Shown here: positions 13,221 to 55,831 of the stretch, in pieces
Layout of the letters: each line of letters begins with the position of its first letter
How positions within the stretch are numbered: the first letter of the stretch is position 1
Origin: Sthenelais limicola
Lineage: Eukaryota; Annelida; Polychaeta; Phyllodocida; Sigalionidae
DNA: 64,000 nucleotides
NCBI GenBank assembly: GCA_942159475.1
Contig: OW804097.1
Coordinates: forward strand, 50,302,986-50,366,985
Direction of reading: 5' to 3'
Program-made: the position numbers and the translations under genes
Notes under the pieces: generated by a model
Seen by the model: the letters and a program-made list of their open reading frames with translations, nothing else
The model's database searches: none
Told to the model about the DNA's origin: nothing

Positions 13221-13229
13221 TTTAATTAT

Positions 13230-18332: not shown

Positions 18333-18342
18333 GGCCCCTTCC

Positions 18343-31039: not shown

Positions 31040-31209
31040 ATCTTTTCCCGCCGTAGGATCGTCCTACGGCGGGTAGGATCTTCCCAGGTAGGATTGTGGT
31101 AGGATCATTTTAGTAATACAGAATTTAGGATTATCCTATATTGCGACAATAATCCTAGCCATAGGATCATCCTACTTTAGGATCATCCTACGTTAGTAAT
31201 ATGCCCCCC
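31040..31209 (-). repeat. Right terminal repeat of the Harbinger element
   Basis: It carries the inverted terminal motif (31188-31209) and a cluster of palindromes: CCCGCCGTAGGA-TCG-TCCTACGGCGGG at 31048-31074, TAGGATTATCCTA at 31126-31138, and TAGGATCATCCTA at 31162-31174 and 31178-31190. Confidence 0.75.
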
Positions 31210-31979
31210 AGTATTGTACCATACGATGGCCATTCTCCCGAACCACCTGCCTCCTTTAATTCTGGGTCCAGGCCGGGGTCTTGTGTACCCCAGTCGATTG
31301 TCCCCCAACTATCTTCAGGAAACAATTCTAGGGTGGAACCGATTTTTCCCGCCATGGTCCCCTTTAGGGATCCTATTATCACGAGCATTCTGAAAATTCT
31401 ATATGAAAGATAAATGGTCAGCAAAACATGTAATATTTCTATCAACCAGAATATTAGTGGCACCTGCGGTGTCTCTGTTAGATCTGTTAGATCTTGCCAT
31501 GCCTTATACTTCCATTCTCCCTCTTGCTCTATGTTATGCTTAATTGCTCTCATAACCTTGTTAACCTCCATTCCCTTTGCGAACTGCTGGGGAGACAGTG
31601 CTGTGAGCATTTGTCCCAATTCCCTTCCCGTAGGTAGGTTCAAGTGTACTAGAAAGATAGTGAGGCTTTCTCCTGAAAAGTTTCCCACTGGTATTCCAAA
31701 GCTTTTTGCAAAGGCTAGATTGAAGCCATGCGCCACTGAGACCTCTACCCTGCTTAACTCTCTACATGTTAATTCTTTGGGTCTTAATCTATGGTGATTT
31801 ATCTGCAGGATGCATCTGCAGGACACTTCGAACACAGAGATCCCTACTATATTGACCTCCCTTGTTTCGTTATTGCATGTCATCAACCCTTTAGGCCCCT
31901 TGTTTATAAGCAAGTACGTTGATCCGGCCACATTCTTAACAACGTCTGGCGCCATTTTCTCTAAGTATATGTCAAACAT
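31210..31979 (-). pseudogene. env: Envelope, C-terminal part with membrane anchor (copy 2)
   Basis: This frame encodes the end of the F-like fusion subunit. A cysteine pair in the context GLMTCNNET and EVSCRCILQ resembles the C-rich loop of errantivirus and baculovirus F proteins. A hydrophobic segment of about 25 residues (31400-31480) then gives the membrane anchor, and a tail of about 60 residues follows. The last codons run into the Harbinger repeat, so the natural terminus is lost. The frame differs from that of the upstream env part, so one frameshift lies near 31985-32010. Confidence 0.6.
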
Positions 31980-32008
31980 GCAATACCTAAGAATATTAGC
32001 GCTATGAT

Positions 32009-32288
32009 CTATAAGAGAGTGATCATGCAGTCCTCTTCTTTTCCTGAATTGTCTATGAAGTTAAATGGACATATGTAACTATCTTTTTTAGTACATTGCG
32101 TTAGTTCAATTGCATCTACTTCCATCAGTTCTCCTGACCTTCGTTTGGCTAGCATGCGTTGAGTGGCTGATCTCAAGCGTGTGCAATCTTCTCGCGAGGC
32201 GTTGTGCACATGTAATGGTGTATCAAATATTTCCATCTCGTACAACTAGAGGGGTTCTGATTCTTCGGCCAGAAAAATTGGCACTAAT
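32009..32288 (-). pseudogene. env: Envelope, central part (copy 2)
   Basis: This is the same reading frame as env exon 2, separated from it by two in-frame TAG codons (at about 32288 and 32237). It encodes a middle part with ICPFNFIDNSGKEEDC. It ends near 32009, where the frame shifts. A 51-base intron between the two TAGs is conceivable (GTATTA to CTCTAG) but shorter than typical animal introns, so decay is the better reading. Confidence 0.5.
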
Positions 32289-32290
32289 AC

Positions 32291-33173
32291 CTAGATGGTG
32301 TCATTAGCCCCAAACTGCACCCCAACGTTCTTATTCCAGTCGATGTATTCTTCTAAAATGCCCAAAGTGCTATTATCCCCCAATGCCTGGCTTATTCTTT
32401 CTTCCCATCCACTTTCCATAAATTCCTTGGCAAGCGACTCGTGTAATTTTCCTTCTCTAAGTGTCTCCAAAATATTGCCTATTATTGTTATATCCTCAAT
32501 ATAGTTTCCTATAGTAAGACACCCCAATATGGACCTCTGGAGTTGTTGTTGGACTATCCCCTGTAATTCTATATCCCCATACATTATGTCTGATAATTGT
32601 GCCGTTTTATTGGCGAACTGCAACCATCTCCCTTCCAATTCATCCATTGCACTGATAGATTCGTTTACATGTGATCTCAAGAACCTAAATATAATGTTGG
32701 AATTGGCCACCAACTTCATTAGAGCCTCGTCCCGTAAGTGTGGGTTTCTTATAATCCCTGGTGCAAGCCTGTGAATAATGTGTCTTTCTACCTTTCTTAG
32801 GTCTGAATTACTTGGAATATCTAACAGATTTCCTAGTGCTTGCCCAAATGGAGATAGTAAATTTCTTTTATTTCTTTTTGAGCGCAGCAAAATCTCTTTC
32901 AAGTGTTTGGCTTGCTCGTACTCCCTTTCCGCCCGTAAGAGCAGCTCCTTTCTATATTCTGCTAGAGACTTTCCTACTTCCTTATACCCCTCTGGCCAAT
33001 TCCCATTTTCTAACTGCACAGGCCCTGGAGGCCGAATTTTCAACTTAGAGCGAAAGCCCAAATTCATTGTTTCCACTCCTGCCAAAAGTGTACCACGACT
33101 TGCGAACACAACTCCATAATTATGTCTGAGGACCGCCACTGTCATGCAACTACATTGCATGCTAAGGATGATC
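32291..33173 (-). pseudogene. env: Envelope exon 2: surface subunit, cleavage site, fusion peptide (copy 2)
   Basis: The exon starts after a T-rich acceptor (AG at 33175-33174). About 80 residues in, a dibasic furin-type site (RSKRNKR) is followed at once by a hydrophobic LLSPFGQALGNLLDI segment and an acidic/helical stretch. This is the layout of F-type class I fusion proteins of errantiviruses, BEL elements and baculoviruses. Helical heptad-like sequence and three N-glycosylation sequons follow. An in-frame TAG ends it at 32291. The role inferred is membrane fusion and entry. The match is by pattern and not by alignment search. Confidence 0.65.
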
Positions 33174-33349
33174 CTAAAAATAAGAAGTTAGCCTATTGGT
33201 AAAGGCACTAATTACCAAGAAAGTCATACTGCTTGCCTACTGGCCCTTCATGGGCGAAATTGAGATTCCCAAATAATTTGTCATCCCAATAAGTTACAAG
33301 TCCCGAAAGCACAAGTGAATATAAAGTTCTTTACAGAAGAGTAACTTAC
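33174..33349 (-). other. Short intron within env
   Basis: It spans 176 bases with GTAAGT at the 5' end and CTTATTTTTAG at the 3' end. The same boundaries are in copy 1 (285-460). It divides the signal peptide from the mature envelope, so the two exons stay in phase. Confidence 0.6.
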
Positions 33350-33369
33350 CCTATCACAAAGCCAATCAT
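33350..33369 (-). CDS. env: Env signal-peptide exon 1 (copy 2)
   Basis: ATG at 33369 opens a 20-base hydrophobic coding exon ending before the GTAAGT donor. It joins exon 2 in phase (GG plus G). Both copies preserve it. The start is chosen because it is the only one giving a secretion signal in front of the F-like ectodomain. Confidence 0.6.
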
Positions 33370-33812
33370 CGTCAAGATTTTGTCAGTATCTTTCGGGTCC
33401 TATATGCAAGTGTATGTTCCCTATCCTCTGATACAAGCGAAGTGATGCTTTCGCCCTGGCTGTGCTGAGCTTAAATATGAAACCAGACCAGTCCAAGGGC
33501 TTGTTCCGTCCCCCCTCCCTCTCCAAGCTTTCTGCTCATCCCACTCTTATGTCAGGGTACGATTGTCCCAGCTCCTGACCTGCCCCCGCTAGAGGAGATT
33601 CTGCATAATCACCACCTAGCCCCCTTAGGTGCATGGGGCCTGCCTTGCAATTTTTAGAACATCCCCCCAACTGCTTGCAAGCCTCTTGTGGGTGCAAAAT
33701 GCTTGAGCCCAATTGTTGCGTCTATTTTTATTTCTCTGCCTGGCTTCATTAGCTCCACCTCCTCGGCATTCCAGACCCGTGTATTAATATCTTGGTTCAT
33801 ATTACACTTACC
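33370..33812 (-). pseudogene. ORF G region, disrupted (copy 2)
   Basis: This is homologous to the open 102-codon ORF G at 494-802 of copy 1 but has about 130 additional bases (33498-33634) that break the frame. The extra segment is C-rich with no clear splice boundaries. Either it was gained here or copy 1 lost it. Confidence 0.45.
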
Positions 33813-34332: not shown

Positions 34333-34448
34333 CTAGACTGGACAATCAATCTCCAAAATAAATTGTGTTGGGCAGCAAGCTGCCCCAAATTTCTTATGAA
34401 TCATAACGTATGTCTCACCTTTATTCCTGCAGGCATCCAGGTAAGTGG
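34333..34448 (-). pseudogene. ORF E 3' end beyond the foldback insert (copy 2)
   Basis: About 37 codons (including YLDACRNKGETYVM) up to a stop at 34333 continue ORF E on the far side of the foldback. A donor-like AAAGGTGAGA lies inside. The same junction exists in copy 1. Confidence 0.45.
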
Positions 34449-35935
34449 CATATGGCCATTTCCACCAATTTGACAACATTTGGGCCCCTAGACACCCCCA
34501 GAATACCAAAAAATAATTTTTACTTTTATCAGTTGATTTGTTATTTTCTATCAACCTCATATATATGCACATTAAACTGTCAAGTTTGGAACCATTCTGA
34601 TTATTAGTAATTTTTCTACAGGGGGGTCGAAAAATAGATCCCAAATATGAAAAAATGCCAAAAATAGCATGTCGAATAATGGTACATATTTCTACATAAA
34701 TGAGGATTTAAATTAGAAATAGATAAAACAAATATGCACATAATGCATTGAACTATTTTGTACTTGATAGGTCTCGACATAAGGATCATAACACCTTTTA
34801 TTTGGTGAAAATATTCTAACTAGAAGAAAAGTTATAGCCAAATAACCATTCTGTAATGGTAATGATAATGGCAGCGGCAAGGGTGACAGGTCATTGACCC
34901 CTCTGCCCACATTATTATGCATGTATACACATTATATAACTCATTATAATTATTTAGAATATATATAACATTCATTACCCTCGTTTACTTTTTTAAGTTA
35001 ACTTGAATACTTGAATTGATTGTTCCTGTTCTGTTTAAGTATTTAGAGACAATTTCTTTTAGGGTAAATGTTCTAATATTATATATATATGTTAGGAATA
35101 TAATTTCTGACATTTAGTGACGGTAGACGTGACGTAGACAACGTGACGAAGACGACAAAAGCGTGACGAAGATTTTTTTAGCATTTTCCCTTGAAAATCA
35201 TTTAAAAACGACTCGGAAATTCTTAAGTTCAGTCTACATAGATTGCTATTAAGCAAAGTTAATAATAAATGTCAAATTTAAAGTTTATTATTAAATTTAT
35301 GCCTTGTAAGGCTCTACAAAACCCTAAAATAGGTGTGACGAAGACGACATGGGCTAGGGTACCCACCCCCTTTTGCTGCCATGTTATTTCTCTGCTATTA
35401 TTCAAGAAAAACTCAAATCAATACATCTGATGTTGTATATCTATGTAATCCCATGCATTCTATCATTATTCATCAAAATTTGATATATTTTTTTTTTATT
35501 TATTTATTTGTTCCACCTTAGGCACACAGCGTGACGAAGACGACATGGGGGGGTACCCACAATTTTTTTTTTAAATTTTGATGGCTTTTGGCCAAAAAAA
35601 TTTTTTTTTTGCATTTTTTTTTTACACAGATCATATTCACGTAACCTACTATCACAACATATAAAAAAAAATGTTCAATTTTGAAGATTATTTAGAAATT
35701 TAGCAATTCCACGGACTAATGGCTGTTAAAAAAAACGATTTTTGCCTCCAAAATGGGATTTTGAAATTAAAAAAAAAAAAAAATTGGGCAAAAAATGCCA
35801 AAAATGTTGTTCCACAGGTTGGTAGAACCATCCAATCAAAAAAAAATATCAAAATAATGATAATAAACTTGATTTAAGCCCATTTTACCCCTTTCCACGG
35901 TTGGGGGCCAAATGTTGTCAAATTGGTGGAATTGG
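34449..35935. mobile_element. Foldback element inserted in ORF E (copy 2)
   Basis: Its arms (CCACCAATTTGACAACATTT at the left and the reverse complement near 35915-35925) bound an AT-rich, non-coding interior. Three copies of GTGACGAAGACGACATGG-like motifs lie at about 35150, 35334 and 35531, at a period of about 180-200 bases. This mirrors the three-motif layout in the copy 1 insert but with a different motif sequence. The left part of the interior aligns with copy 1 at roughly 70-75 percent. Confidence 0.65.
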
Positions 35936-36449
35936 CCATATATAGTTCAATTTGCCATACATCCACGGGTAGGGATAAGTGATACCTGATAGTTGCTTCT
36001 GACATCTCTGTTAGTTTGTCTAAAAATTGTACCGCTTCCTCCAGTGTTTCTGGAAATAGACCCCTCATTCGCGGGCGATACATATTTAATGTTTCATACA
36101 GCAAATCCGTTATAATGCTCACTGAATCCTGTAGTCGCCTTAACGGCGTGAGGGTATGCCGCTCTGTTATATTGACTGACAAGGTGCGAATTGGTTCATA
36201 GCGCAATCCTCTCAAGAAATCAAACCCAGCCTTTCGCAACCTCACGATGTGCGTTTCTTTTTGCAGCCTCCTGATCGGCTCAAACTCTGGGTATTGTTCA
36301 TGTGGGGGAAGCATGTAAAACTTCAGGACCCCCATCAATAACCAGTTAGCCTTAACCTGTTGGTTTAGAATGGCAGTCATTCTTGCTGCTCTGTCATTTC
36401 TTCTAACAATCTCCGCATTTATCCTCTCATTCCCTCTGATCTTGTTCAT
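35936..36449 (-). CDS. Retroelement accessory ORF E (copy 2)
   Basis: It starts at ATG 36449 (context GGGCAAAATG) and reads about 170 residues before entering the foldback; the original C-terminus lies at 34333-34448. The protein is basic and helical, with YMLPPHEQYPEFEPIRRL near residue 50 and LFPETLEEAVQFL near residue 130. The first motif aligns with ORFs A (FLAPSAECYGQCPDRRL) and C (MLLPSAIKYPEQLPEHRL). No database family is recognised by eye. The role is unknown, and position between pol and env suggests an accessory protein. Confidence 0.6.
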
Positions 36450-36771
36450 TTTGCCCGAACTGCCTCAAGTATAACTATCTTCCAATGTCAATGCAAACCT
36501 CGATGTAGATCTCCCTTCCCGTCAGCTCTTATTATACTATATACTTATACCACCCCCATCTCCCCCCCCCCCACCCTCCCCAACATTCCTACTATACCTC
36601 CTTGTTGTATCAGATCGGCTTATTTTCGACCCTCACAGTCTTGCTTCCCCTCCCCCATAGCAACTGGAGACGTTCTCTAATCGTCCATAACATATATAGA
36701 CAGTGTGTATTACATGGGAATGTCCCTCTCGTTCACGGTCCTGTCAGACCCTAATAACTTGCCTCTCACAT

Positions 36772-37344
36772 TCAAATATTTGGCAGGAATTTCTCTGGAA
36801 GTATATCACGAATGTTCGTAAAATCCATTCTTGAGTTCATACATGAGAAAACAAGTCCCCTTGGCAAGCTTGAGCGTTCTTGCAAGTATGGAATCAGTTT
36901 ATGTTCCTTTGCATCATTTACACATTCCAACCTATACTCTTCTGCACAGTATACTGCCAAGATATCCATTAATACTTCTGCAGTTGCTTTCATTAGTTGA
37001 GTCAACTTTTCCGATATCGTTACAGCTGACTGTGCTTGAATGATACTTCTCATGCGGCCTCCGCTTGTCGTTATTCGCACAATCGGCTGACAACCCCTGC
37101 TTTCTGCATAAATCCTACATCGTTCTTTCAAAATATAAATATATGTGTCCCGTTTCAATCGCATTTCAGGTTGCAAATACGCGGTACCACCCCTCTCCCT
37201 AGGTTCGGTAATAAAATATCTCATTGCTCTGACCAGCATAATTCCTACTTTTTTCTTTTGTCTTCTTAATATCCTCATTTCTTCTTCTCCCAATCTTTCC
37301 TTTTCCAAGCGACATTTTTCTCTCGCTAATTCTTTTGTATTCAT
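36772..37344 (-). CDS. Retroelement accessory ORF D (copy 2)
   Basis: This is an intact frame of 190 codons from ATG 37344. The N-terminus is a highly charged helix (KERLGEEEMRILRRQKKK). ITEPRERGGTAYLQPEMRL follows at about residue 50 and aligns with the first shared motif of the array. SLPRGLVFSCMNSRM and IRDILPEK near the end align with ORF A (FIPADLIHMIMTEE, IKRLCP). The stop is followed by a donor-like sequence (consensus GGTAAGT in copy 1, GGCAAGT here). The C-terminal half is conserved in copy 1 (18588-18914). Function is unknown. Confidence 0.65.
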   Translation of the reverse strand: MNTKELAREKCRLEKERLGEEEMRILRRQKKKVGIMLVRAMRYFITEPRERGGTAYLQPEMRLKRDTYIYILKERCRIYAESRGCQPIVRITTSGGRMRSIIQAQSAVTISEKLTQLMKATAEVLMDILAVYCAEEYRLECVNDAKEHKLIPYLQERSSLPRGLVFSCMNSRMDFTNIRDILPEKFLPNI

Positions 37345-38323
37345 GATGAAATCCCCTCGAATATTGCGCTTGTTCAGTGTGCCACAACTTCGACAGACCT
37401 TCTAGCGTCCCGGTATATCAGGCACCCTCTCTTCTGTTTCTTTTTTTTCTCATTATCTTTTATTACCCCATAACTCTTTTAGTAGCCATCCCCACCCATT
37501 TCGTTCAACTCATGTGAAATTTCTCCCATAATTTGTTATGAGTTGGTCTTTCTCTCCCAGTCATATCCATAAACAGCGGCGCGTTCCTGCCCCTTCTCTG
37601 CTGATCATGTGACCCTTTCCCCATGACAAGATCTGGTTTTAACTGCGCGCAACTATCCCCCTGTCTATACCATTGCATATGCCAGACTGGGTTTTCAATC
37701 TCAATTTTCGCAAGTAACCATAGCCGAATATTATTTCATGCCTTTCTTCTGACAGTCCCATGGGTTTCGCGATCACATATTCGTTGTCTTAACCTTTATT
37801 AACTAATTAACCCAGAGCGCTAGCGTGGACCCTGGCGCAGAAATGTTATGCTCCTTTCCCCGACAATCATATTTTACACCAACATTCTTGCTTATTCTCA
37901 TACCAACAATTGTTTGAATGCATATCAGCGGAGCATCAATCACGTGACATGTCAGTACTAACTCACAACAGTCACCTATGTGAGATAAGCCCGTCTGCTA
38001 TCATAAATGGGTCCCGCCTAATCACATCCAAGCATCGGGTTTCATGAATTACTAAGTTTCTACAAGATTATACATTTCATTTCATCATTTTCCCAATGGC
38101 CCAATCATCAAGTTTCTCGAATTACTGAATCATTTATCATAGATTACACTCTCCCTTTTGCCACATCCCACGATCCCATTCAAGCCAGTTCGTGACGTCA
38201 CCCATCGCATTAACAGCTTGAGTATCTGATTCAAATGTATTACATTACCTACTCTGCTGATGGTGCGTTATGCCAACTTCATTATTAAAATTCTAGAATC
38301 ATACTTACTGGAACAAGTAACCA
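37345..38323 (-). other. Spacer between ORFs C and D
   Basis: No reading frame of note is seen. The plus strand is pyrimidine-rich near 37430-37500. A GTAAGT donor (GT at 38308-38307) lies shortly after the ORF C stop at 38324. Confidence 0.4.
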
Positions 38324-38863
38324 TCAGGCATCCAACCACGTGACCGCACTTCCAATCCTAATTACTTCTTCTAATGATGTCTTCACCTTCCTTCTAGAGA
38401 AACTAGACATTGCCATGATCCTTCTAATATCACAATCTTGGCGGTTTCTTCTCTGCCAGAATCGTCTCCTTAAGTAATTGGTTGAATAGTGGTTAAGCAC
38501 CACCGTCAACATCCTGTGGATTTGGTGCAAAATTGCTTTTACTCTCTTTTTAATATCCATCTTTTGCAGACTCCTATTAGAAAATAACTTCCCAGGTTTC
38601 TCCCCTAGTTGTTGTAGGAATCTTCCACAGTTTTCATAGATAGCTAGCAAGTGCCATTCCACCTCTAGTCGATGTTCGGGCAGTTGCTCGGGGTATTTTA
38701 TCGCTGATGGCAGCAGCATGAACTTATATATTTTAATATATAATATTGACGCATCCTTGACTGCCTTTCTATTGTATGCAACCATTATCAATGTCCAGAG
38801 CTTTTTGCGTGTGTCGTCAGACAGCGCACAGCTCCCCTCTTTTCGTCGGCCAGTCAAAATCAT
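38324..38863 (-). CDS. Retroelement accessory ORF C (copy 2)
   Basis: This is an intact frame of 179 codons from ATG 38863. It carries MLLPSAIKYPEQLPEHRL followed by EVEWHLLAIYENCGRFL, the clearest match to ORF A (FLAPSAECYGQCPDRRL, NEWYLWHMY). Basic residues are clustered near RRRFWQRRNRQ. It has no cysteine motif, signal peptide or membrane segment. A CAGTAAGTATG donor follows 16 bases after the stop. The product is not recognised; a nucleic-acid-binding role would suit the charge but is only a guess. Confidence 0.6.
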   Translation of the reverse strand: MILTGRRKEGSCALSDDTRKKLWTLIMVAYNRKAVKDASILYIKIYKFMLLPSAIKYPEQLPEHRLEVEWHLLAIYENCGRFLQQLGEKPGKLFSNRSLQKMDIKKRVKAILHQIHRMLTVVLNHYSTNYLRRRFWQRRNRQDCDIRRIMAMSSFSRRKVKTSLEEVIRIGSAVTWLDA

Positions 38864-40257
38864 CTATTTCCATCTTCATGTCCCCTCCCCCCCCTCTGCC
38901 CATACGATCAACTATCATACCCCCTGTCTTTCGTTGCATATTTTCTCCATGTTTTATTCCTGCTCGATCGCCCCTCCCCCCCCCCTCCACGCAGTTATCT
39001 TGTAGTGTTCTATAACCGACCAGGCCATATTGCTATGGAAACGCTTTGCTTGTCCCCGTATATACGGTATTATTGTTTTTCTACCCTCACCTCTCTATTC
39101 GTATCCCTGCACCAGGTCCCAAAAGACATCCTGGTAGATTACTAATTTATCCCTTAGCCACTAACTCTCTTTTCCTCATGTTTCTATTTTTCCCTGTGTG
39201 TTACAAGAAAAATTAATAGTGATAGATATACAACTTAACAATTAATATCTTACTACGTGTGATACTTTTTAAATTTTTTCTTACTGCGTGTGATACTAGA
39301 CATAGATTCGCCACTTAGCAGATCCATTTCTGCCAGTGATCCTAACTTCTGAAAATATCAGTTGTATATGAATTCAAAATCTACCCGCCCAACAAAATAA
39401 TCTTTTATCTTCCAGAACCCTTACTGCTTGTAATTTTAAATACCTCTATTGTCACCAGCAGGTCTATTTCGTTGTTCACACCAACTTTTCTTTTGAAATA
39501 TCAGTTATATAGGGATTCACTGACGCAAGTTGCCGTTCTCACCACAAGCAAAGGTGACTCACCCATTAATTCTCAGTCTAATCTTACCATTCATATATTT
39601 TTCTAATTTATGATCAATACGAACATTCCTCGCGTCGACCGAGCTCCCCCTTATCTCATTGTTTTTGCGCGAGGCCCTGGTCCTTTCTGATGACCTGATA
39701 ATGAGCGTTCTTCACAAGCACCTCCCCTTTTGAGCCCTTTTCATTACGTCAATCAAATATTTTTTATTTAAATGGCACACCTCTTTTAACCAAATATGGG
39801 GGGTGTCCCTTTCCTGGTTTTATGATTCACTTGATCAGATCCTGCAGCCTTCATTAGACCTCAGGACTACACTAGTGAACTTAACCAACTCTAACTTACA
39901 AGACATTGCCATGGATCCCCGAGAACTCCATCTCATAATTGACGACCAGGAGGTGGTGGTGGTACGAGAGAGGTGGACATTGTCTGACCTCGGCCACCTC
40001 CTGGTCCACGGACTATTACTAAAAGGGTCAAGGTGGGCCCTTCGATTCGCCATCGACTACTTCAGAAGGCCGCCTTAGTTTTAGTTTTAGCCATAGTTCT
40101 TCAGTTAACTTAGGTTAGTGTAGGTAGTTACCCTTATTTATTCAGTTATATTAAGTTACTATTTATCCAAGATACCTGCATCCCAGACCCAAGTCAATCA
40201 CCTATAGCATCCATCTCTTCCTGCCTACTACTTAAAGGTGAGTTCCTATCTTTACCC
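38864..40257. other. Spacer between ORFs B and C with an antisense ORF
   Basis: It contains poly-C tracts at 38880-38895 and 38970-38990 and AT-rich sequence. No minus-strand coding is seen. The only feature of note is a plus-strand frame at 39803-40078, listed separately. Confidence 0.4.
39803..40078 (+). CDS. Antisense small ORF, 55-91 aa
   Basis: This plus-strand frame from 39803 (or from the better-placed ATG at 39911) ends at TAG 40078. From 39911 it reads MDPRELHLIIDDQEVVVVRE and then a leucine-rich, tryptophan-containing stretch. GC content and codon variety rise exactly over this frame. It runs opposite to all neighbouring retroelement ORFs and has no recognised relative. It could be an antisense accessory gene, part of another small insert, or chance. 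Confidence 0.3.
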   Translation: MSLSWFYDSLDQILQPSLDLRTTLVNLTNSNLQDIAMDPRELHLIIDDQEVVVVRERWTLSDLGHLLVHGLLLKGSRWALRFAIDYFRRPP

Positions 40258-40830
40258 TTACCTGCCTACCTTTGTCAATACCCATATATTTCTCATTGTG
40301 TGGACCATTATATACCCTGAGGGACGCATGTAGTATGTCAATGATACGATGTAGTAACCATGATACTCACAGAAGCGCCGACATTTTGACACTGGTATCC
40401 ATTCTTCGAGCCTCTTGTCCTTCCAACTCCATTGTTCACACATTAATTCTCCCATTTCAGTTTCTGTTATTCCTGTATTGCTTGCCAACAGTCTAATTAT
40501 AGTATCCCTATGGTAATTACATGGCCGCATTCGTAGCATAGTACGGATGAAGAAGCATGTCATCATTGACATGTATATGTACTGTTGCTTTCGCGTGCGA
40601 AGGTGCCAATTCATATGATTGACAGCCCTTCTAGCCATTCTGTCAGGCATTTCTTGCGCCAAGAATCGAGAAGCCTCCCACCATAGATCCCTTAAATGTG
40701 ATTCCATTTCAATTCTTCTCCTAGCACTAGCTCCCCTAAATCTCAGGTGTTCTCTCTGCATATATAGGCGCGCTAATCTCACCACCATTACAATGTGAGT
40801 TTTTTCCTTCCTGGTAATAGGATGCGACAT
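40258..40830 (-). CDS. Retroelement accessory ORF B (copy 2)
   Basis: This is an intact frame of 190 codons from ATG 40830. A plausible acceptor (GCTGTTCTCAG) lies about 45 bases upstream. FRGASARRRIEMESHL at about residue 33 takes the place of the shared motif, with weaker similarity than A, C and E. The C-terminus reads IWVLTK directly before GTAGGC and CAGGTAAGG donors, like VWVIVR before GTAAGT in ORF A. It is rich in Arg, Met and Trp. Function unknown. Confidence 0.6.
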   Translation of the reverse strand: MSHPITRKEKTHIVMVVRLARLYMQREHLRFRGASARRRIEMESHLRDLWWEASRFLAQEMPDRMARRAVNHMNWHLRTRKQQYIYMSMMTCFFIRTMLRMRPCNYHRDTIIRLLASNTGITETEMGELMCEQWSWKDKRLEEWIPVSKCRRFCEYHGYYIVSLTYYMRPSGYIMVHTMRNIWVLTKVGR

Positions 40831-40930
40831 TTCCTCACTGATAACCTATGCTCAATGTTGTTCTCTTTCTACTGAGAACAGCTTGCATGGTCCTACCCCT
40901 TTTAACTCCTCCCTTTTGCTTGAAAACACC

Positions 40931-41458
40931 TTACAGAAATGCCTTGTGTCTATATCGGCCGTCTGCAATAGTCTGAGTAATTTTACTTACCCTCACGATC
41001 ACCCAGACCCCTGGACACAGCCTTTTGATGTCGAGTATATCTATTTCTTCCGTCATAATCATGTGAATTAGGTCTGCTGGTATGAAGGTGAGGCCACAAA
41101 CGTATTGATAGAGTACCATCCTATCGCATCGTACATATGCAAGTCGCTTCTGTTCTACCTCCAGGGACAAGATGTTCATTATTAGTCTTGGAATCAGGAC
41201 ATGGGCAATAAACTTATGTTGTTGGTATCTTGTTCTAGAGAGCGGGAACACATTTATAATCTGTCTTAATTTGTCGTTTGTCAACTTTAAATCCGAATAC
41301 ATGTGCCACAAGTACCATTCATTTGCCAGTCTCCTGTCTGGGCACTGCCCATAGCATTCAGCTGAGGGCGCGAGGAATATTCTCAGCAACCTAATCAGTA
41401 AACGTTCTACGTCAAACATATCCTGTACCCTCATGGCTGCAATGTGGAGCGTGTTCAT
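40931..41458 (-). CDS. Retroelement accessory ORF A (copy 2)
   Basis: This is an intact frame of 175 codons from ATG 41458, the first ORF after integrase. FLAPSAECYGQCPDRRL near residue 30 and NEWYLWHMY next to it are shared with ORF C. The C-terminal FIPADLIHMIM and IKRLCP are shared with ORF D. A consensus donor, GAGGGTAAGT (GT at 40990-40989), sits within the last 20 codons, so splicing would give a different C-terminus. It is basic and largely helical, with no signal or membrane segment. Function unknown. Confidence 0.6.
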   Translation of the reverse strand: MNTLHIAAMRVQDMFDVERLLIRLLRIFLAPSAECYGQCPDRRLANEWYLWHMYSDLKLTNDKLRQIINVFPLSRTRYQQHKFIAHVLIPRLIMNILSLEVEQKRLAYVRCDRMVLYQYVCGLTFIPADLIHMIMTEEIDILDIKRLCPGVWVIVRVSKITQTIADGRYRHKAFL

Positions 41459-42561
41459 CGTAACTCCTCTGTTAGCCTTTTCCTTCGCAATTTAACACAG
41501 CCTATTACCGCCTCTCTTAGGCAACTACTATCCTCCCTTATTTAATTACCTTCCCTCCATCGCTTCCCGAGTTGCTGACATATTTTAGTTCTTTATTTCT
41601 TGCTCGCGGCCTGATCTATTCATGCAACCAGTCGCTGCATTCTCCTCTGGCTTTTCTTTCCTGCTTCTCCTAACACTAACAATTCTGCCCATGTCCCCCA
41701 GCCTTTCTGATTTATTCTGAGTATCTAACATTTTTTCTTTCCCATTACAATTCCTTACATAAACAATTTTACCCTTTAATTATGATAAATTAGCCACCTT
41801 TTCCACCCTTTTTTCTCGGACAAGCAAAGCTATCCTTCTTTACTTTTGCCATTTTTCTTCCTTTTTATCTTACAGCACCTGATATACTCATTTTTACCTT
41901 ATGACAATACTAGGGTAATTACTTTCACCCTTTTTCTCGGATAAGCAAAGCTTTCTCACTCCCACCTTATGACATAGCTCCCGCAACCCATTTAACTTCT
42001 ATTATCGTGGTGTGAACATGAGCCCAAACAGGAGCCATGTTTTTGCAGGCATCAAATTAAACCCAATCCCTCTTTTTCTCTACCCGAATGTACCCGAGTT
42101 ACACGCGATAACTCCCTCCGATCAAGCGCGGTCCGCTGCCTTGTTTATACTATTTATAGCCAGTTTCGTACGAAACCGATACCGCTCCTCTTCTTACTCC
42201 GAGTCACCGTGTTACTTATTTCCTCGTACTTCCTTTAATATAATTCTTTGGCCTCTAACAATTCCCCCTTACCATACCCCTCTTTTTATTCGGAGACACA
42301 TACCCTACCAGTTCCCATTATTCTAATTCCATTCCTCATCGGTCTTTCTTTTATCAGTTCCCACCTTCCCGTTTCACTCCTCCCCAACCCTTACGTGTGA
42401 CAGACTATACTTCCTGCGCGCTCCGTGGTTATAGCCGTACAACCACAACAGCTGTTCAACAGTCCATTCGCTCAAGCCTGATACATTATATATTGTTAAC
42501 TCGCCCTTGCCAAGGCATTATGTACTGCAATTCTTTTAACATGACAATGTCACTCACCCCA
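41459..42561 (-). other. Spacer between integrase and ORF A
   Basis: No coding frame is supported. A TTTTCTCGGAcAAGCAAAGC-type sequence occurs at 41811 and again at 41932, about 120 bases apart. The plus strand is C/T-rich (minus purine-rich), resembling a polypurine stretch, but no LTR match was found here. Confidence 0.4.
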
Positions 42562-44337
42562 TTATAGATCTTCCTCTGTTTCATTCTCAGGCCAATGGTG
42601 GCCTATTTCTTCTGTGCAGGCGATATCCTGCCACCCTCCTTCTTCCACGGGGCCCTCTTCTTCGTATTCGTGTAATGGTACCAAATCTGGGGACAGCAGT
42701 CTTTCCATAAAATGGCTTGTCCTAGCTATACTTACCGGCTTCAGGTGAGAGACATGCACCGGCCTTGGCAGTGTCACTCCAGTGTCCATTCTTCGCAGCT
42801 TAGTAGTGCACCCTGTGGGCCTAGCACAAACGAAGAAGGGGCCACAGAAATTTTTCTGCAGCTTGTATGCAGTGCCGGGCTGGAGGAGTCGATGAACCCT
42901 CATATATACTAAAGAACCCGGCTTCAATTTATGTGCACTAGCCTGCCTGTCATAGTATTCTTTCATTTTAGCCTAAGAAGTTAGCAGCGCCTCCTGAGCG
43001 AGGTCCCCATAGACTTCCTGTTTCTCCACGACCTTGCCCAACTGCTCCAAAAGGGGTCTCATTTCTCCCTCATATTCCTTCAGCACATTTTCGTGGGGCA
43101 GTCGCGGGAACCTTCCATACATGAGGAGATATGCTGGATAATTTGTTGTGCTAGAGTCCGACGCATTTATTGCAAAAACCACCGGCGCCACAAAATGGCA
43201 CTAATTCTTTTGTGCCTTGTCCACATATGCCCTCAGGGCTGTCTTCAAGACTCTATTAAGGCGTTCTATTTGACCTTGCGAGCGTGGGTAATATGGCGAA
43301 CCAAATACCTGTCTAATCCCCATCACAGTACAGAAATTTCTGAATAATTTGCTCGTAAATGACGAACCGTTATCGCTGAAAAGGGTACATGGTACCCCCA
43401 AGACAGCCACCACATGCTCAAAGAACTCAGCTATCAAGGTCTCCGACCTTATATCCTTTGTCGGCCAAGCCACACAGAACCTTGTAGCCACGTCACAGAT
43501 TGTATGCACGTATTTATAGCCCCTGTCTGACTCAGGCAGTGGGCCTATAGTGTCAATCTCGATGGCTTCCCATGGCACCTGTGATAGTTCCTTCACAGTC
43601 ATTGGCACTTTGATAGGATTATGATTTGGTTTCACCTCCAAACACTTCCTACAAGATCCAATATACTCGCTTATATCTCTAGCCATAGAGGGCCAGTAAT
43701 ATCTCGACGAAGCTATGCTAAGCATCTTTTTTACACCCAAATGTGCGCCTAAACCGACGTCGTGTATTTGGTGCAACAATTTCTCCACCATTGACTGGGG
43801 AACCACTAGCTGGGCTCTCTCCTCTATTTGGGCCTTTTTTGTTCTTGGAGGCACCCTGTACAAAATCCCCTTTGATAGCAAAAAGCAATCATGCTGCAGC
43901 AACACTCCCCTGGCTCTCGCGTTGTCTTTGGGAAGTTTTTCCCTCTCTATGTAATTTGTCATATCACTGCAAAATTCGTCAGTGATCTGTTCCTTCTCGA
44001 ATACTTCTCTTGTTCCTAGTGCCCCATATTCTGTGATAAGTTTTTCATAAAAGGCTGTCTCAGTGATTTGCACCTCTCGTGCCCTTACCCCTTTTCTTCT
44101 TCTTTCTTTTTGATACTTACCAACCAGTGATGGGACTCCAAGAGTTTTCCTCCTCCTAGAGATACCTTTGCTAATGAGGGTTTCCCCCTCTGGTGTTTCC
44201 TCCTCTGCTATTTCAGGCAGTGGCACCTCCGGGTCATTGTCAGGCTCGCTCTCCTCCCTTGTCGCTGTCACTGTGGTATGGGAAGCCATCATCATCCTTT
44301 TCGCCTCCCTCTGTGTCCGGCTCCGGCCTTGCTGCAC
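42562..44337 (-). pseudogene. pol: Integrase (copy 2)
   Basis: The frame contains the HHCC zinc region (HDVGLGAHLGVKKM, then SCRKCLE) and the integrase core: D in IDTIGPLPES, D in LFSDNGSSF and E in QGQIERLNRV. C-terminal sequence ends in an HVSHLKPVSI motif and an acidic tail. Two in-frame TAG stops, at about 43198 and 42967, break it. The frame also differs from that of the preceding RNase H part, so a frameshift lies between 44240 and 44337. The family role is insertion of the cDNA. No chromodomain is seen. Confidence 0.8.
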
Positions 44338-44651: not shown

Positions 44652-44977
44652 CTACCTGAGATCCTGCTTAGCGTTTAGTGCCAACAGTGCCGCATGATCA
44701 GTGTATACATCGAAGTGGCTGCCTAGTACATAGTGCTTAAACTTGTGCATGCCATAGCGGACCGCTACCAATTCCTTCTCTGTAGCAGAGAAATTTTGTT
44801 CTGCCGATGACAGACTTCTTCCTGCAAATGCAACAGGTCTATGGAAATAATTATCGTGCAACTGGGTCAACACGATGCCAATACCTACGCGGGAAGCATC
44901 ACACCAGATGGTGAACTGTTTCTCATAGTCTGGATATCTTAGGACGACATCCTCACACATTGATCGCTTTACAGCTT
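44652..44977 (-). pseudogene. pol: RNase H N-terminal part (copy 2)
   Basis: CDASRVGIGIVLTQ, RPVAFAGRSLSSAEQNFSAT, EKELVAVRYG and YTDHAALLAL are the standard gypsy RNase H motifs, including the catalytic D-E-D. The upstream end is separated from the RT part by the 44981-48744 insert. Confidence 0.8.
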
Positions 44978-44980
44978 TAA

Positions 44981-47900
44981 TAGTCCGGAGGTAGGAGGGG
45001 TGAACCTTGCGTTTTAGGGCCATACGAAGTTTTTTGATTGATTCTAAATCTCCAAAATCTCCTGATTCCAAATCTGCCGGGTGCCACTCTGTAACCCTTG
45101 AGGAAAATTATTTATCGACGTTTTAAAAAAAAAGTTAAAAATATTAAATTTAATCAATAAAAAAAATATTTCAATGTCAGTATCCACTATAATTGCATAA
45201 TTATGATGGAACATGAACTTTGTAAGTGGAATTAAATATATACCAAGTTAGAGAATTCATCATGACCTCTAAAGGTCATATTCAAAGGTCAAAGGTCAAG
45301 GTCAAAGGTATTATTTAAGGTTTTTTGCAAATAACTATGAGAAAAATCGTCTGACATCTTAGATCGAATAAAGATATATAGAGCCACACACCTTTCCCGA
45401 CTTGGCGCGGGAAAAAGCGTTGTCAAGCACTCAGAAGTACAACGCGCGTTACTAACGTTGCATGAATAAGAAGACCTCACGATGCACATTATTGCGTCGT
45501 CTCTGGCATAGGGCTAGTCCATACACGGAGCTACGCAACATTTGCGCCAACAAAACAAAGTTTGTATTGGTCTCTCACGTCATCAATTAAAGTAATACAT
45601 AAACATGGTTCATACCAAATGCAAGCTTAGACATTTCTCTTTCTGATGGTGTATAGGGTTAGGCAATTATTTTATATATTAATGCCTTAGAATGCTACAT
45701 TAGACAAGCCAGTTTTGCACGACGATCGGATTTTTGTCATTGGAGTCAATCCCATACTTGTCAAGCAGCAGGGGAAAGGCCGAACATTATTAACAGTGCA
45801 GTTTCCCTCATATCGTCCTTATTTAAATACAAATGTTGATGAAATTAAATATATAGGGGTAGAAAAACATGCTCTTTCAGAATTTAAACATCTTGGTAAT
45901 GTATTTGGAGTAGAGATAGCGTTTTTTAGCGTAATATTTAAGCGTAATTTCCCCATGATGTCCCTGCCAAAACTCAATAGGGTCAGGTCGTCAGAAAATG
46001 TACAATGGTTGGCTCTACGCATTTAGTAAATCTTGCTAAATTACTTGAAAAATGAAAAATACTAGCTACACTAGAGTATGTTTGGTGTTACATCGATTGC
46101 ACGAATGTGCTTGGTTATGTAAAACTGTATTTTGAATCTCATTTCTTTCTCAAATCTCCGCCATGTGCCTGCCGCAACCTAAATAGGGTCAGGTTGTCAG
46201 AAAATGTACAATCGTTGGCTCATATATGCCTTATTTATAAAAACTGACCTTGATATAAATACAGTTTATGGGGTAGAAAAGCATGCGCTGTCCGAATTTC
46301 ATGTTTTTGGCAATTTACTTCGAGTAGAAATAGCGATTTGTTATCAATATGTGGGAGCGTGCGTGTGCGATGTGTACGCAAGTGCGTCGGAAATTCAGGT
46401 GGAAATGGGCAGAATGGGGTTTTCCTTATAAGGGGGCGACGCGGACGCGCAAAGAACAGGCGGCAAAAACTGGAACCTATATAAGGTTTCCCAGTACAAG
46501 CACCTTCGGCGCTCATACCGCCTTCGGCAGGGGAAACCTTAAAAAAACATCCCACTTACAAATGGGTGCAGCTTGGATTTCAGGTGTGAGGCCACCAATC
46601 TATTTCTTCTCATGTAAACTTAACCCTATTGTCATCAATTGTAATATCTTTGGATTTTAGTATACAAAGCTATAGTTCATCTAAATTATCATGTTCAACA
46701 GGTCCTGTTCAACAGTAGTTGTTTGATATAGTTGTGCAGCAGCAAAATAAAGCTGTGCACTATTTTATAAGTGTGAAGGTGATGAGCTCTCTTCAAATGA
46801 CTTCACCAAATCATCTCTGGATAGATGAAGGAAGTAAAGATTAGTTTAATAATAATATTTAATATTCCCTGTTTATAAGCTGCGCTCTGTGTATGGGCCT
46901 TCCCAGTAGTTGAATAAAAGTATTAAAATACAAAAAATAATAGCCAATATGGGATTTACATGTGCCCTTGTGCAAGCTGATTCTCAACATACTGACATAC
47001 AAATATTTAGCAGCACTAAAATAGGAAGAATATTTTCAAGAATGCTATTACTTCTATCAGGGAGGTATATACAGAGGGAGTAGAAACGAGGATTATGCTC
47101 AACTGGCATATAGTAGAAAGTAATGCCACTACTACGGTCCCCCTCTCTCCGCACATTTCCCCCACTCCCCCTTTTGCCTCTGTCTCTCATACCTGTTTTT
47201 CTCTCCAAACCCTATCCCCGATTTCCCCCTCTCCCTTGCCTCTTCCTCATGCTCCCCCTCCTTCCTTTGTCTCCCTTCCCCTACATCATCTCCCTTCCCT
47301 CTTTTCCCTCTCCTTCTTCTTTCCCTTCCCCTCTCGTATTTTCCCACCCTCTCCCTTTTACTCACTCTCCCCTCCTACATCCTCTCCCTCCTCTCCCCCT
47401 CTCCAATACCCCGACCCCTCTTCTTCACTCTCCCACTCCTCTGCATGTAGTGGCAAATGACCCCCCTCTGGATTTCCAAACCTGTCCACCCCTAGACAGA
47501 AATATTGGACTGAATGATTATCAATTAACCTATTGAGAAATATGTATAATGCATAATGCATAATGGAATCAAATCACATATAATGTGTAAATTGAATTAA
47601 TAAATTGAATTCGAAATTCTACAGTTAGTTCTCCTAATCCTTACATTACGAACTGTTGTCAGGCAATTATTCTGAATGATCTTCTTGTCTGATGACATGT
47701 CTACCACACTATACTCCCAAATTGTAGTACTGGAACTATAAATGTTTTAAATATCAAGGAAGCAAGGTCTCTCTTAATTAAATGCCTTATTATGCCTCTG
47801 TAATATACTAGCAATACTAATGCCAATAATGCACTATACTGGTTCATGTTATAGATAACAAAATTATCTCTGTAACCCCTAGATTAAAAAATGTTTTGCA

Positions 47901-48744
47901 TTGTAGTCTTAGTTTGTAGTAATGTGGTATCAGTTTTTGCATGAACAATTACAGAATCAGACATCCTTTCATAGTGATTAGTTCTTGTCATAATGCTATC
48001 AGGAATAATTATTTTGATGATTGTGCACATTAACATCTGATTCCTTTCATTATCGTCAAAAGTGCTGACCCCATCCCTTTAATTGCTATAAAACCATAAA
48101 AAATTCAATTTAATTCAGATACTTGGTTACAAAATATCAATTGAAAGATCCTAGAACAATCATTTCATGTGTTTAGCTCTATCTATAACAGATACTCAAC
48201 TATGCTTCCAAGAAACAAGGGCCTACTTCATTTTCCGGCCAAAACACAAAATTGTCTCATCAAGTAATTGTAATAGGACTTCTGAATGTAGAATCAAGTA
48301 ACTGGTATCAATCAATAGGAAATAATGTACCCTAAAATTAATTTAATTTGATCTAAGATGTCAGACCATTTTCTCCAAGAGTTATTTGCAAAAAACCTCA
48401 AACATACTTTTGACCTTGACCTTTGACCTTTGAATATGACCTTTAGCGGTCATGATGAACTCTCTTGACCTTGAAATATGCAATTCCTCGTTCAAAGTTT
48501 ATTTTCCATCAAAATTATGCAATTACAGTGGATATTTAGGACGAAATTATTTTTTTAATTATTAAAATTAATTTTTTTAACTTTTTTTTTTCAAATGTTG
48601 ATAAATAATTTTCCTCAAGGGTTACAGAGTGGCACCCGGCAGATTTGGAATCAGGAGATTCTGGAGATCTAGAATCAATAAAAAAACATTGTATGGACCA
48701 AAACGCAAGGTTCAGCCCAAAAATGGGGTTCTGCCTCCGGACTA
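44981..48744. mobile_element. 3.76 kb element with 400 bp inverted repeats, inserted in pol
   Basis: The ends read TAGTCCGGAGG and CCTCCGGACTA. Inverted repeats of about 400 bp (44981-45375 and 48345-48744) match at roughly 80 percent. The duplicated target is TAA on both sides (44978-44980 and 48745-48747), and removing element plus one target copy leaves the pol frame uninterrupted there. A 3 bp TWA target is typical of PIF/Harbinger elements. No transposase is seen, so it is non-autonomous. Interior repeats of about 205 bp occur around 45780-46400. Confidence 0.75.
45376..48344. other. Interior of the 3.76 kb element, non-coding
   Basis: Diverged repeats share GGTAGAAAAACATGC (45857, 46270) and GGTCAGGTCGTCAGAAAATG (45983, 46186). 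A C/T-rich stretch at 47130-47460 gives low-complexity open frames on both strands. No protein family is recognised. Confidence 0.55.
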
Positions 48745-48747
48745 TAA

Positions 48748-49567
48748 AGGCTATATCTGCTTCAGTATTCCACTGAAACTGCTCCCTGCGACCCAGCTTC
48801 TTGGTCAGCTGATACAGAGGAACCATCCTGTCTGCAAAGTTTGGAATAAACGACCTGTAATAATTTGCCAGGCCATTAAAGGCTCTCATTTCCCTGACAG
48901 TTTTTGGTATAGGGTATGAACGTATTATCCGGACCTTTTCCGGGTCGGGCTGCAGCCCATCCTTTGTAACCACAAACCCCAGAAATTGCATAATCTCATA
49001 CCCAAATGCACACTTTTCAGCTCTAAATTTAAGTTTTGCCCCCCTGAAAGCCTGCAAAACCTCCTCAACGTCCTGCATATGCTCCGACCATGTAGGTGAA
49101 GCAATAATTACATCGTCCATGTATGGCAGGGCATTCGGCACATATTTTAGCACGCTCTCGATCACCGAATGAAATGGTTTAGGCGATGTTTTTAGGCCCA
49201 TTGGCATGACCCTGTACTGGTAGACCCCCTTCGGTGTGACAAAGCTTGTCTTAGATTTATCTTCAGGCCTCAGGGGCACCTGAAAAAATCCTGAATGGCA
49301 GTCCAGTTTTGAGAAAAATCGTCCCCCCAGTCCTCCGACATTTTCCAGCATTTCATCTGCTGAAGGGAAGACCCTACATTTGTTTTTTATGCATTTATTG
49401 ATTTCACAATAGTCGATGACCAAGCGATAATTTTTGTCCTGTCTCTCTGCTGCCTTTCCCTTCTCTACCAGAAAACATGGTGCAGCGAACTCCGACTCGC
49501 CATTCGATTTTTCAATAATGCCTAAACGCATTTGCTCCTCCAGCATTGTCTCCAATACTTTTGTCAT
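48748..49567 (-). pseudogene. pol: Reverse transcriptase (copy 2)
   Basis: Motifs in order are RLGIIEKSNGESEF, RLVIDYCEIN, FFSKLDCHSGFFQVPL, FVTPKGVYQYRVMPMGLK, ALPYMDDVIIAS, KCAFGYEIMQFLG and ADRMVPLYQLTK. This is a full gypsy-type RT with YMDD. Upstream, it is joined in frame to the protease part except for one TGA at about 49579. Downstream it is interrupted by the inverted-repeat element. Confidence 0.85.
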
Positions 49568-49579
49568 ATGAGGGTTGGT

Positions 49580-51046
49580 TCAGTATGGGTTTCTGATCGG
49601 CGCCATGTATTTCTCTTTTAATTCTATCTTATGTGCGAATATATCTGTCGTCGAGATCGGCGAATCCTTTGTAGCGAAAACCGATTGATATCTTTGCAGC
49701 AGGCTTGCCATACTCAATTTCTGCTCCGCCGTCAGCTGATCGCCTAGAGTATATTCAACGTTTGCTCGTTCACGCGTTGTCATACCTACCTTGTCATTCT
49801 CCATAGTCTGCTCGGCCGTTTTGGAGATGCTCGTTCTCATGTAGTCCTCTTCGTCGACCACAGAGAAGGCTGCTAAAACAGAACCCTTTCCCAATTTTAT
49901 TGCTGTATTTGCGGCATTAAATAGGGTGATTGGTATGTTATTTCCCCCTTTTTGAGGCCTAACTAGGGCCCTTTTAACCGCAAATGGGACCTGCACACAT
50001 CTTTTCAAATTGTCAACTACCCCCACTGTATGATTTAAATTTTGATGGGTTGAAACCACTGCCATGCAAGTAAATTCGGATTTAGGAGGTATTAATTTTG
50101 GCTTGGTTAATCTGACGGTGTAATGGTCAGGATCCTGCATTCGAAAGTCTATCTGGGCCTTTCTTGCTTTCAAAAAGTCAACCCCTATGATACATTGAAG
50201 GGAAAGGCCCCTCACAACATAGAACCATGCATTAGTATGGGCTTCTCCAATGTTAATGGACAACAACACCCTTTCTTTCGCCCTGTGGCGCCCCCCATCG
50301 GCTGTGTATATAACCAAATATGTCTGTACACGGCGAAGCAGCGCACCCTTTTGCTGCACTACTTGGTTCAGCGTGTCAGTTGAGATACAGCTAATACTAG
50401 CACCCGTGTCTACCAGGCAATTAATTTTTGGCGACCCAACTGTACAAATTGTTCTGCAGTTTTCCAGCTGAACTGTCACTTTTCCCGTGTCACTATCTTG
50501 GAGTACCAGCTGTGAGGAACGATCCTTGCCCCCGTCTGATTTCTCATTGTCATCTTGTGTCACCTCTATGTGATTTTCAAAGGACATTAATCCCTCGCTA
50601 TCAAGCGTCTGAAGTTCCGATTTCTGTGTTGCTCTATCCTGTTCATACTCTTTCTTCTTTTTCTCCTGTATCTTCCATCTTCTTTTTTGGCTCCATCTCT
50701 TCCTTATAGCTCTTGCTACATCCCTTTCTTTTGAGGCCATCTCCTGCACCTCCATCGTTCCCTTTTCCTCTTCGCTTCCCGAATTAGTAGCACTCATCGC
50801 ATTATTCTTATATACTTCAGATCGGTCAATCCCCTCTGCCGGTGTGAAAATTCTGGCGATAAACTCCGTCCTTGACTTTACCTGTCGTTTTTGGTGGTTG
50901 GACTTGTATCCTCTTACTCCTGTCCCTTTCCTGGCGTCTTTCCCCCTCCTCTCTTCTCGGAGTCCATTCTCTGTCATCAGGAGATTGATGATCCTGGACC
51001 CTGGGACGCGTATTGACATTACTACTCTCACTAGGAGTAATATCAT
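49580..51046 (-). CDS. pol: Protease and pol N-terminus (copy 2)
   Basis: NCLVDTGASISC is the aspartic protease active site, and LQCIIGVDFLKARKAQIDF is the second conserved block. The N-terminal 150 residues are charged and may include the gag-pol junction. The frame overlaps the capsid frame by 221 bases in the +1 register, so expression would need a frameshift, as in Ty3. The end (KYMAPIRNPY) is the start of the RT region and stops at a single TGA in frame with RT. Confidence 0.75.
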   Translation of the reverse strand: MILLLVRVVMSIRVPGSRIINLLMTENGLREERRGKDARKGTGVRGYKSNHQKRQVKSRTEFIARIFTPAEGIDRSEVYKNNAMSATNSGSEEEKGTMEVQEMASKERDVARAIRKRWSQKRRWKIQEKKKKEYEQDRATQKSELQTLDSEGLMSFENHIEVTQDDNEKSDGGKDRSSQLVLQDSDTGKVTVQLENCRTICTVGSPKINCLVDTGASISCISTDTLNQVVQQKGALLRRVQTYLVIYTADGGRHRAKERVLLSINIGEAHTNAWFYVVRGLSLQCIIGVDFLKARKAQIDFRMQDPDHYTVRLTKPKLIPPKSEFTCMAVVSTHQNLNHTVGVVDNLKRCVQVPFAVKRALVRPQKGGNNIPITLFNAANTAIKLGKGSVLAAFSVVDEEDYMRTSISKTAEQTMENDKVGMTTRERANVEYTLGDQLTAEQKLSMASLLQRYQSVFATKDSPISTTDIFAHKIELKEKYMAPIRNPY

Positions 51047-53515: not shown

Positions 53516-53518
53516 ATA

Positions 53519-55470: not shown

Positions 55471-55831
55471 TTAACCGCTGCAAGAGATTGTTGTGTTTAT
55501 TTGTATTTGTATTTCTTTATTGACAGCATTTTACCAGGTGCATGATGATAATTCTCAGCATGTCTTAAATTTTAGAAAAATAATATATCGAATCAAGTGT
55601 TTAATGTTAACATATATTCGGCATAATCACTAGGTGTCGTCGCATTCACAGAAGTTTCGTTGCTTATATCAGAGCCATTAATACTAGAGTTGGGAAGCCC
55701 CAGTACATAGCTGTTTGCGCTGCCTATCTCGGCTAATTTAGTTCACTCATAGCATGTAAGGTGGCGCTAGTAGCGGCGCGTTGCGCCCCTAGTGAAGTTT
55801 TTGTGCAAGAGTGGAACTCTCCTGCGTCTAA

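Follow-up and report, generated by a model that had tools for sequence, protein, structure and literature searches.

Five tandem accessory paralogues between pol and env in an env-bearing Ty3/gypsy endogenous retrovirus family

The window analysed here, a 64,000-nucleotide stretch of contig OW804097.1 (assembly GCA_942159475.1), carries a provirus on its minus strand at ~54.2–31.2 kb, with a 5′ long terminal repeat (LTR), gag, protease, reverse transcriptase (RT), RNase H, integrase, five small open reading frames (ORFs A to E) and env, in that order (Table 1). A–E belong to an env-bearing Ty3/gypsy endogenous retrovirus family; they share one ancestor, and each of the five is under purifying selection. 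The original prediction, made from the letters of the window, had described five minus-strand ORFs of 175–191 codons, and the ORF listing bears this out over 35874–41458. The interval given for them, 35936–41458, was right at its upper end; at the lower end ORF E reaches 35874, 62 nt further. The longest sense ORF in 1000 dinucleotide shuffles of 35800–41600 was 169 aa (mean longest 69), as against five observed ORFs of at least 175 aa. Most other copies of ORF C align only from residue ~22–27 on, and an internal methionine may be its true start.

Isoelectric points computed for 30 A–E sequences, including one 100-aa fragment, range from 8.3 to 10.6; every one of these proteins is basic, and this character holds in each subfamily looked at. 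The highest 19-residue hydropathy window among them is 1.63, and no membrane-like segment is present. The proline/R-L motifs quoted in the original prediction were found in the sequences, and we regard the R-L motif as real because its arginine (E residue 61) does not vary among the 39 family members aligned. A leucine at E residue 121 is likewise invariant, and an acidic residue follows R-L in most rows of the alignment. The C-terminal LP..LI motif assigned to A and D is approximate only, reading IPADLI in A and LPRGLV in D.

The five genes travel together. The 1.13-Gb host assembly (161 contigs) contains at least 150 places matching B at 60–100% identity (150 scored of 224 candidates), and we fetched 20 stretches spread over this identity range. 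A and B were present in all 20 loci, C in 17, D in 16 and E in 15. The full set occurred in 15 loci, and in 15 of 15 it had the order A-B-C-D-E on one strand, so the view of the five genes as one element's set is upheld and their co-mobilisation is shown. A C-terminal integrase piece was found in 18 of the 20 loci and env, within 9.9 kb, in 12; all five ORFs were at least 140 aa long in nine. The integrase of L012 lies only far downstream of B and is perhaps from another copy. Among the integrase matches listed, 97 of 109 had a listed B no more than 15 kb downstream (91 within 3 kb) and 12 had none, the pairing having used 148 of the 150 B places.

A second copy of part of the element lies within the window itself, and D and E had been called conserved in it. 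Stretches at 1–3377 and 18336–18915 do show 94–95% DNA identity, but E carries a one-base frameshift, D lacks its N-terminal part, and an insertion of ~15 kb separates them. The ~14-kb insert at 4155–18334, between E and D of this copy, is bounded by 103-bp terminal inverted repeats that are 97% alike; internal repeats are numerous in it, no stop-to-stop frame is longer than 122 aa, and 777 bp of unexplained sequence precede its left inverted repeat.

Paralogy of A–E was examined first within the window and then with families drawn from the genome. In the window-only test, a leave-one-out hidden Markov model (HMM) of four ORFs was compared with 1579 six-frame pieces; the values were 1e-5 for A, 6e-9 for C, 2e-5 for D and 2e-9 for E, and B was doubtful at 0.084. 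Pairwise Smith-Waterman scores measured against shuffles were strongest for C-E, A-C and A-D (P 1e-5 to 1e-4), with no signal for A-B. When genome-copy representatives of four families were pooled and aligned to the fifth with HHalign (136–159 columns), similarity was significant for all five and covered most of their length, with E values of 1e-8 for A, 1.6e-4 for B, 5e-13 for C, 7e-6 for D and 4e-10 for E and probabilities of 95.6%, 50%, 98%, 84% and 97%, respectively. For each family, none of 61 controls (60 column shuffles and one reversal) reached the observed score. The profile search that had been proposed as a check therefore returns a paralogous family, as the original prediction had held, provided the other four families are pooled.

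In a tree of 39 sequences each family is monophyletic (support 0.98 for A, 1.0 for B, 0.995 for C, 0.999 for D and 0.61 for E), and the duplications most likely preceded the split of the present subfamilies. No sixth paralogue was found in the 20 loci, four flank pieces or the window. That search returned six weak fragments only (E values 8e-7 to 0.016), most of them adjoining a known gene; two of the six, between E and env of the two window copies, are unexplained. The sequence between E and env at 34490–35870 is AT-rich, and the two window copies differ much more there than in the adjoining DNA; a very weak E-like fragment lies at 34404–34487 (E value 0.008).

Selection was measured as the ratio of non-synonymous to synonymous substitution rates (dN/dS) between genome copies, on ORFs of at least 140 aa, a choice that favours intact copies, and on pairs with dS of 0.15–2, which share history and are not independent. 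Median dN/dS was 0.21 for A (82 pairs), 0.11 for B (97), 0.25 for C (40), 0.17 for D (50) and 0.09 for E (39); this comparison too had been proposed as a check, and the medians are not near one. A case for selection built just on the pair of copies in the window was set aside as too weak: D and E together differ by 17 synonymous and 21 non-synonymous changes, marginally more synonymous than in a neutral simulation (P = 0.054), and the genome copies supersede it. Between the window copy and locus L024, dS is 2.35 for B and not computable for A, C, D and E, placing it near or beyond saturation. The DNA that still aligns between these two comprises the five ORFs, the env start and seven stretches holding non-coding sequence, the longest of which sits just before env. 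Protein identity in this comparison is 64% for A, 64% for B, 46% for C, 56% for D and 74% for E, as against 88% for integrase. Given this lower identity and the saturated synonymous sites, A–E evolve faster than integrase and are nonetheless constrained.

Lentiviruses have a central polypurine tract, and a candidate for such an element lies between integrase and A. The motif is found ~450–500 nt before A; in L013, which has a broken A, the distance is 631 nt. Its 20-mer is exact in 17 of the 20 loci, has one mismatch in one more and is absent from two, both of which also lack a nearby integrase end. The 23-mer has 150 exact occurrences genome-wide and its reversed control none. In the one copy compared, the tract agrees in 20 of 22 columns with the stretch immediately preceding the 3′ LTR, and none of 20,000 shuffles did as well. 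The 23-nt tract is likely a central polypurine tract.

Signals for separate expression of env were also found. A block of ~380–440 nt upstream of env is common to the window and six loci and keeps a TATA-like site; a GT donor is present in six of the seven aligned rows, the L021 row ending before it, and in the window a candidate acceptor follows at 33174. From this arrangement env may be transcribed from a promoter of its own and contain an intron. In several copies TATA-like strings can be seen ahead of A, D and E as well. In a scan of the window with a textbook splice-site matrix and a threshold of our own, candidate donors were frequent everywhere. The string GGTAAGT at 40984–40992, close to the 3′ end of A, recurs in seven of seven aligned rows and is a possible splice donor within A. 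The minus-strand purine fraction is 0.63 in the accessory spacers, 0.57 in the accessory ORFs, 0.59 in gag-pol and 0.58 in env, as against 0.50 in the flanks, an excess of the kind expected for one transcription unit.

We propose, with a probability of roughly 0.6, that A–E derive from one tandem-duplicated protein whose copies serve separate tasks in the replication of an element resembling the complex retroviruses. A basic, soluble, all-helical protein would have been duplicated in tandem, and the duplicates would have taken over separate replication steps in the cell, candidates being RNA binding or export, assembly of the long genome and contact with host factors. The internal polypurine tract would provide a second plus-strand start for that long genome, and env would be expressed from its own promoter, with an intron. 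Duplication, fixed order and constraint on each copy together argue that each gene has its own task. The biochemical role is one we infer: in view of the positive charge and the 21-kb genome, RNA handling or assembly is our first choice, by analogy with CERV of the Cer1 element. A wider proposition is that the organisation of complex retroviruses, with dedicated accessory proteins, a central polypurine tract and separate control of env expression, arose once more and independently within Ty3/gypsy elements, in what is probably a non-vertebrate host. The whole accessory set would then stem from five-fold duplication of one new protein family in a recently mobile provirus. This is tentative, and we hold it at a little under an even chance.

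Several results weigh against assigning A–E separate tasks in one element. Five of the 20 loci (L010, L012, L014, L015 and L023) are incomplete within the fetched stretch; in L023, of the young subfamily, only A and B were seen, and the other five of the six young copies fetched (L024–L028) retain all five genes. Window pairs printed with dS below 0.1 gave dN/dS of 0.61 and 1.11 for A, 0.73–0.99 for B and 0.18 for C; we read the ratios of 0.6–1.1 in near pairs of A and B as relaxed decay after insertion. Comparison of the two window copies shows the spacer from D to E conserved to the same degree as the genes (97.6%). Single-family HHalign was clear for C-E (85%), fair for A-C (47%) and below 6% for the other eight pairs, so paralogy of B and D rests on the pooled profile. 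In the window, three of the gaps (integrase to A, C to D, D to E) hold no acceptor above threshold, and splicing to each small ORF finds no support in that scan.

Structural and database comparisons add to these objections, since they lend no support to nucleic-acid binding or to any other role. The structure model of E is mostly helical and of moderate quality (pLDDT 69, pTM 0.68), and that of B is poor (pLDDT 55.8, pTM 0.47), mostly helical with two low-confidence strands. Fold searches therefore used the E model only; Foldseek against two libraries returned nothing at E value 0.001, the best rows lying above 1. A–E have no meaningful match in Pfam, NCBIfam, PHROGs or PDB sequences, and no PDB sequence matches the family profile at E value 0.001; designed Bcl-binding proteins (PDB match, E value 0.64) were dismissed as noise. 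Viral contigs contained no relatives of C, D, E, env, RT or integrase (A and B were not searched there), prokaryotic genome contigs none of E, and phage records none of integrase.

The main rival, which we consider unlikely, holds that A–E are antagonists of host defence, each directed against a different restriction factor in the manner of Vif/Vpr/Vpx-like adaptors. Tandem duplication and divergence are usual for host-antagonist genes and fit the present family, as does its faster divergence than integrase between the window copy and L024 (46–74% against 88% identity). Against this, the whole-gene medians of 0.09–0.25 indicate no continuous positive selection at gene level, and no degron or E3-adaptor domain was found. 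An F-box, SOCS-box or helix-turn-helix reading of the C-terminal parts, an idea formed by eye, was abandoned: five Pfam scans were empty at E value 10, and consensus strings scored like shuffles (lowest P 0.04 among 15 comparisons). A structural role in the virion, with A–E forming a layered inner coat that packages the 21-kb genome, is less probable still. Five related, basic and predicted helical subunits and an unusually long genome are what it would call for, but the element already has gag N-terminal and capsid ORFs and the E model matches no viral protein at E value 0.001.

It is very improbable that the cluster is a host gene family captured once and carried as a passenger. The want of viral family matches would be consistent with such an origin, and the 150 scored B places were all filled by close copies, with single-copy host relatives beyond the reach of that list; even so, in 15 of 20 loci the full cassette occupies the same position, and each gene is under selection. 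That A–E are chance or decayed, functionless ORFs, as the high ratios in the nearest copies of A and B, the weak two-copy test and the equally conserved D-E spacer might suggest, we regard as already refuted by the dN/dS medians and the pooled-profile paralogy, the frames being open across subfamilies with saturated synonymous sites and no shuffle in 1000 yielding a 170-aa ORF.

Table 1. Features of the provirus and of its second copy in the window
Feature	Position	Strand	Remarks
ORF A, accessory paralogue	40931-41458	minus	175 aa
ORF B, accessory paralogue	40258-40830	minus	190 aa; 151 aa in the abundant young subfamily
ORF C, accessory paralogue	38324-38863	minus	179 aa
ORF D, accessory paralogue	36772-37344	minus	190 aa
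ORF E, accessory paralogue	35874-36449	minus	191 aa; most conserved of the five
Central polypurine-tract-like element	41927-41962	minus	second, less exact copy at ~41807-41834
Diverged 5′ LTR	53150-54171	minus	outer end ~54171; inner end estimated
gag	50826-53049	minus	long N-terminal ORF 51571-53049 (no Pfam match) and capsid ORF 50826-51686
Protease-containing ORF	49580-51052	minus	
Reverse transcriptase	48536-49579	minus	
~3-kb insert breaking pol	45372-48343		inverted RT-region copies at flanks: 44970-45372 / 48343-48755
RNase H	44652-45107	minus	
Integrase	42562-44337	minus	H2C2 zinc finger, core domain, C-terminal part
Conserved block upstream of env	33343-33779	minus	TATA-like site, short ATG-containing stretch, GT donor at 33349
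env	31188-33187	minus	spread over different frames, broken in window copy
Second copy: env start and E (frameshifted)	1-3377	minus	
Second copy: D-E spacer and C-terminal part of D	18336-18915	minus	

The assignment to the Ty3/gypsy lineage made in the original prediction agrees with the Pfam matches of gag, protease, RT, RNase H and integrase to retroelement models, and the pol order protease-RT-RNase H-integrase is that of Metaviridae. Among solved structures, RT is closest to Ty3 (best PDB matches 4ol8 and 7q5b, the latter named Ty3-G); the best PDB match of integrase is foamy virus, at 1e-29 versus 4e-17 for Ty3. Retroviridae are marked by a second RNase H domain with a degenerate tether; the window copy has a single RNase H match, and its RT-RNase H junction carries the 3-kb insertion. 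Neither an LTR pair nor a 3′ LTR is present in the window. Two pieces of env had no Pfam match above the cut-off, and the first had no PDB sequence match. Judged by eye, this env-like gene has a hydrophobic segment and a basic site of the kind seen at cleavage positions, which may correspond to the fusion-peptide region and cleavage site of errantivirus-type Env, a group related to baculovirus F and gypsy Env. A cluster of AGGATnATCCT-like palindromes, also seen by eye, lies directly downstream of env at 31050–31190. With pol interrupted and env spread across frames the window copy is dead; A–E are still open.

A copy with both LTRs was found on another contig. Aligned with each other (701 columns), its LTRs show a single mismatch, which falls immediately outside the TG start; this leaves 698-bp LTRs without a difference, TG..CA ends and a TTAT duplication on both sides. 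In this one copy, the TG..CA ends and 4-bp target duplication are also those of Metaviridae. The copy spans ~21.3 kb, worked out by hand from its coordinates. Its env frame ends ~2.9 kb short of the 3′ LTR, and sense ORFs in that gap do not exceed 120 aa. At the env/3′ LTR end of the element, two copies compared over 3 kb show 99.8% identity, and 66 of the 109 listed integrase places lie within an open frame of at least 1580 aa, by a count made by eye. Identical LTRs, near-identical copies and long open integrase frames indicate that the family has been active recently. We considered and rejected a placement in Troyka, which is defined by CG..CG termini, a 3-bp target duplication and the absence of env (PMC12440569); the present family has TG..CA, 4 bp and env instead.

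Two other features were seen outside the provirus. A DIRS/Ngaro-like element on the plus strand at 58199–61356 encodes RT and a tyrosine recombinase in one 694-aa frame (RVT_1, Phage_integrase). A 273-bp direct repeat at 55829–56101 and 57215–57486, 98.5% identical and ~1.1 kb apart, is possibly a small LTR-only element.

It is chiefly in vertebrate retroviruses that accessory gene sets have been described. A selected, multi-copy set of five paralogues in a Ty3/gypsy-type element allows the rise of complex retroviruses by duplication to be asked about, and more than 100 copies provide a natural record of accessory duplication. The family also adds an unstudied protein family and a candidate central polypurine tract outside Retroviridae, and it provides a case in which to ask how a reverse-transcribing genome of 21 kb may be managed.

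Errantivirus-type Metaviridae resemble the present family in their Ty3/gypsy gag, protease, RT, RNase H and integrase and in a downstream env-like gene. To our knowledge such elements carry gag, pol, env and at most a few extra ORFs, whereas here five paralogous genes lie between pol and env, the measured copy spans ~21 kb and the env pieces have no Pfam match above the cut-off. Lentiviruses and spumaviruses carry a number of small accessory genes in the pol-env region, and they also have an internal polypurine tract. The likeness to these complex retroviruses extends to small accessory genes near pol-env, a candidate internal tract and an integrase that matches foamy virus best. It stops at RT, which is closest to Ty3, at the one RNase H match, in a copy interrupted there, and at A–E themselves, which match no described accessory family in Pfam or PDB above the cut-off. 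Walleye epidermal hyperplasia virus likewise has two accessory genes of the same kind, the cyclin-like pair orfA and orfB; those are two copies of a captured host gene, whereas here there are five genes, relatives of which were not found.

Among LTR elements with additional genes, the Burro giant gypsy elements of planarians and the foamy-like elements of fish are large and carry extra ORFs, and Burro has env homology (PMC6431247). In Burro, however, the extra domains belong largely to a single, very large polyprotein in which BIR, ankyrin and BCL2-like motifs can be recognised, and the portion of that paper available mentions gene capture between pol and env and describes no tandem array of paralogues (PMC6431247). 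Cer1 of C. elegans is an LTR element with an extra regulatory protein, CERV, required for export of Cer1 genomic RNA; a single gene is described there (PMC10309623). The sORF1 and sORF2 of the Drosophila MDG1 group are small accessory ORFs of low dN/dS in Metaviridae, but they lie mostly upstream of gag and sORF2 is a short membrane protein (PMC11952523), whereas A–E have no membrane-like segment. Plant Retand/Ogre and bdelloid rotifer elements have extra ORFs downstream of pol (PMC11963269, PMC7264820, PMC5408684); those of Retand are antisense, and the available parts of these sources describe no five-member paralogue family. Five paralogous genes between pol and env were not described in the literature that our searches reached. 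Extra ORFs and giant LTR elements are already known; what we call new is an accessory gene family in an env-bearing Ty3/gypsy provirus.

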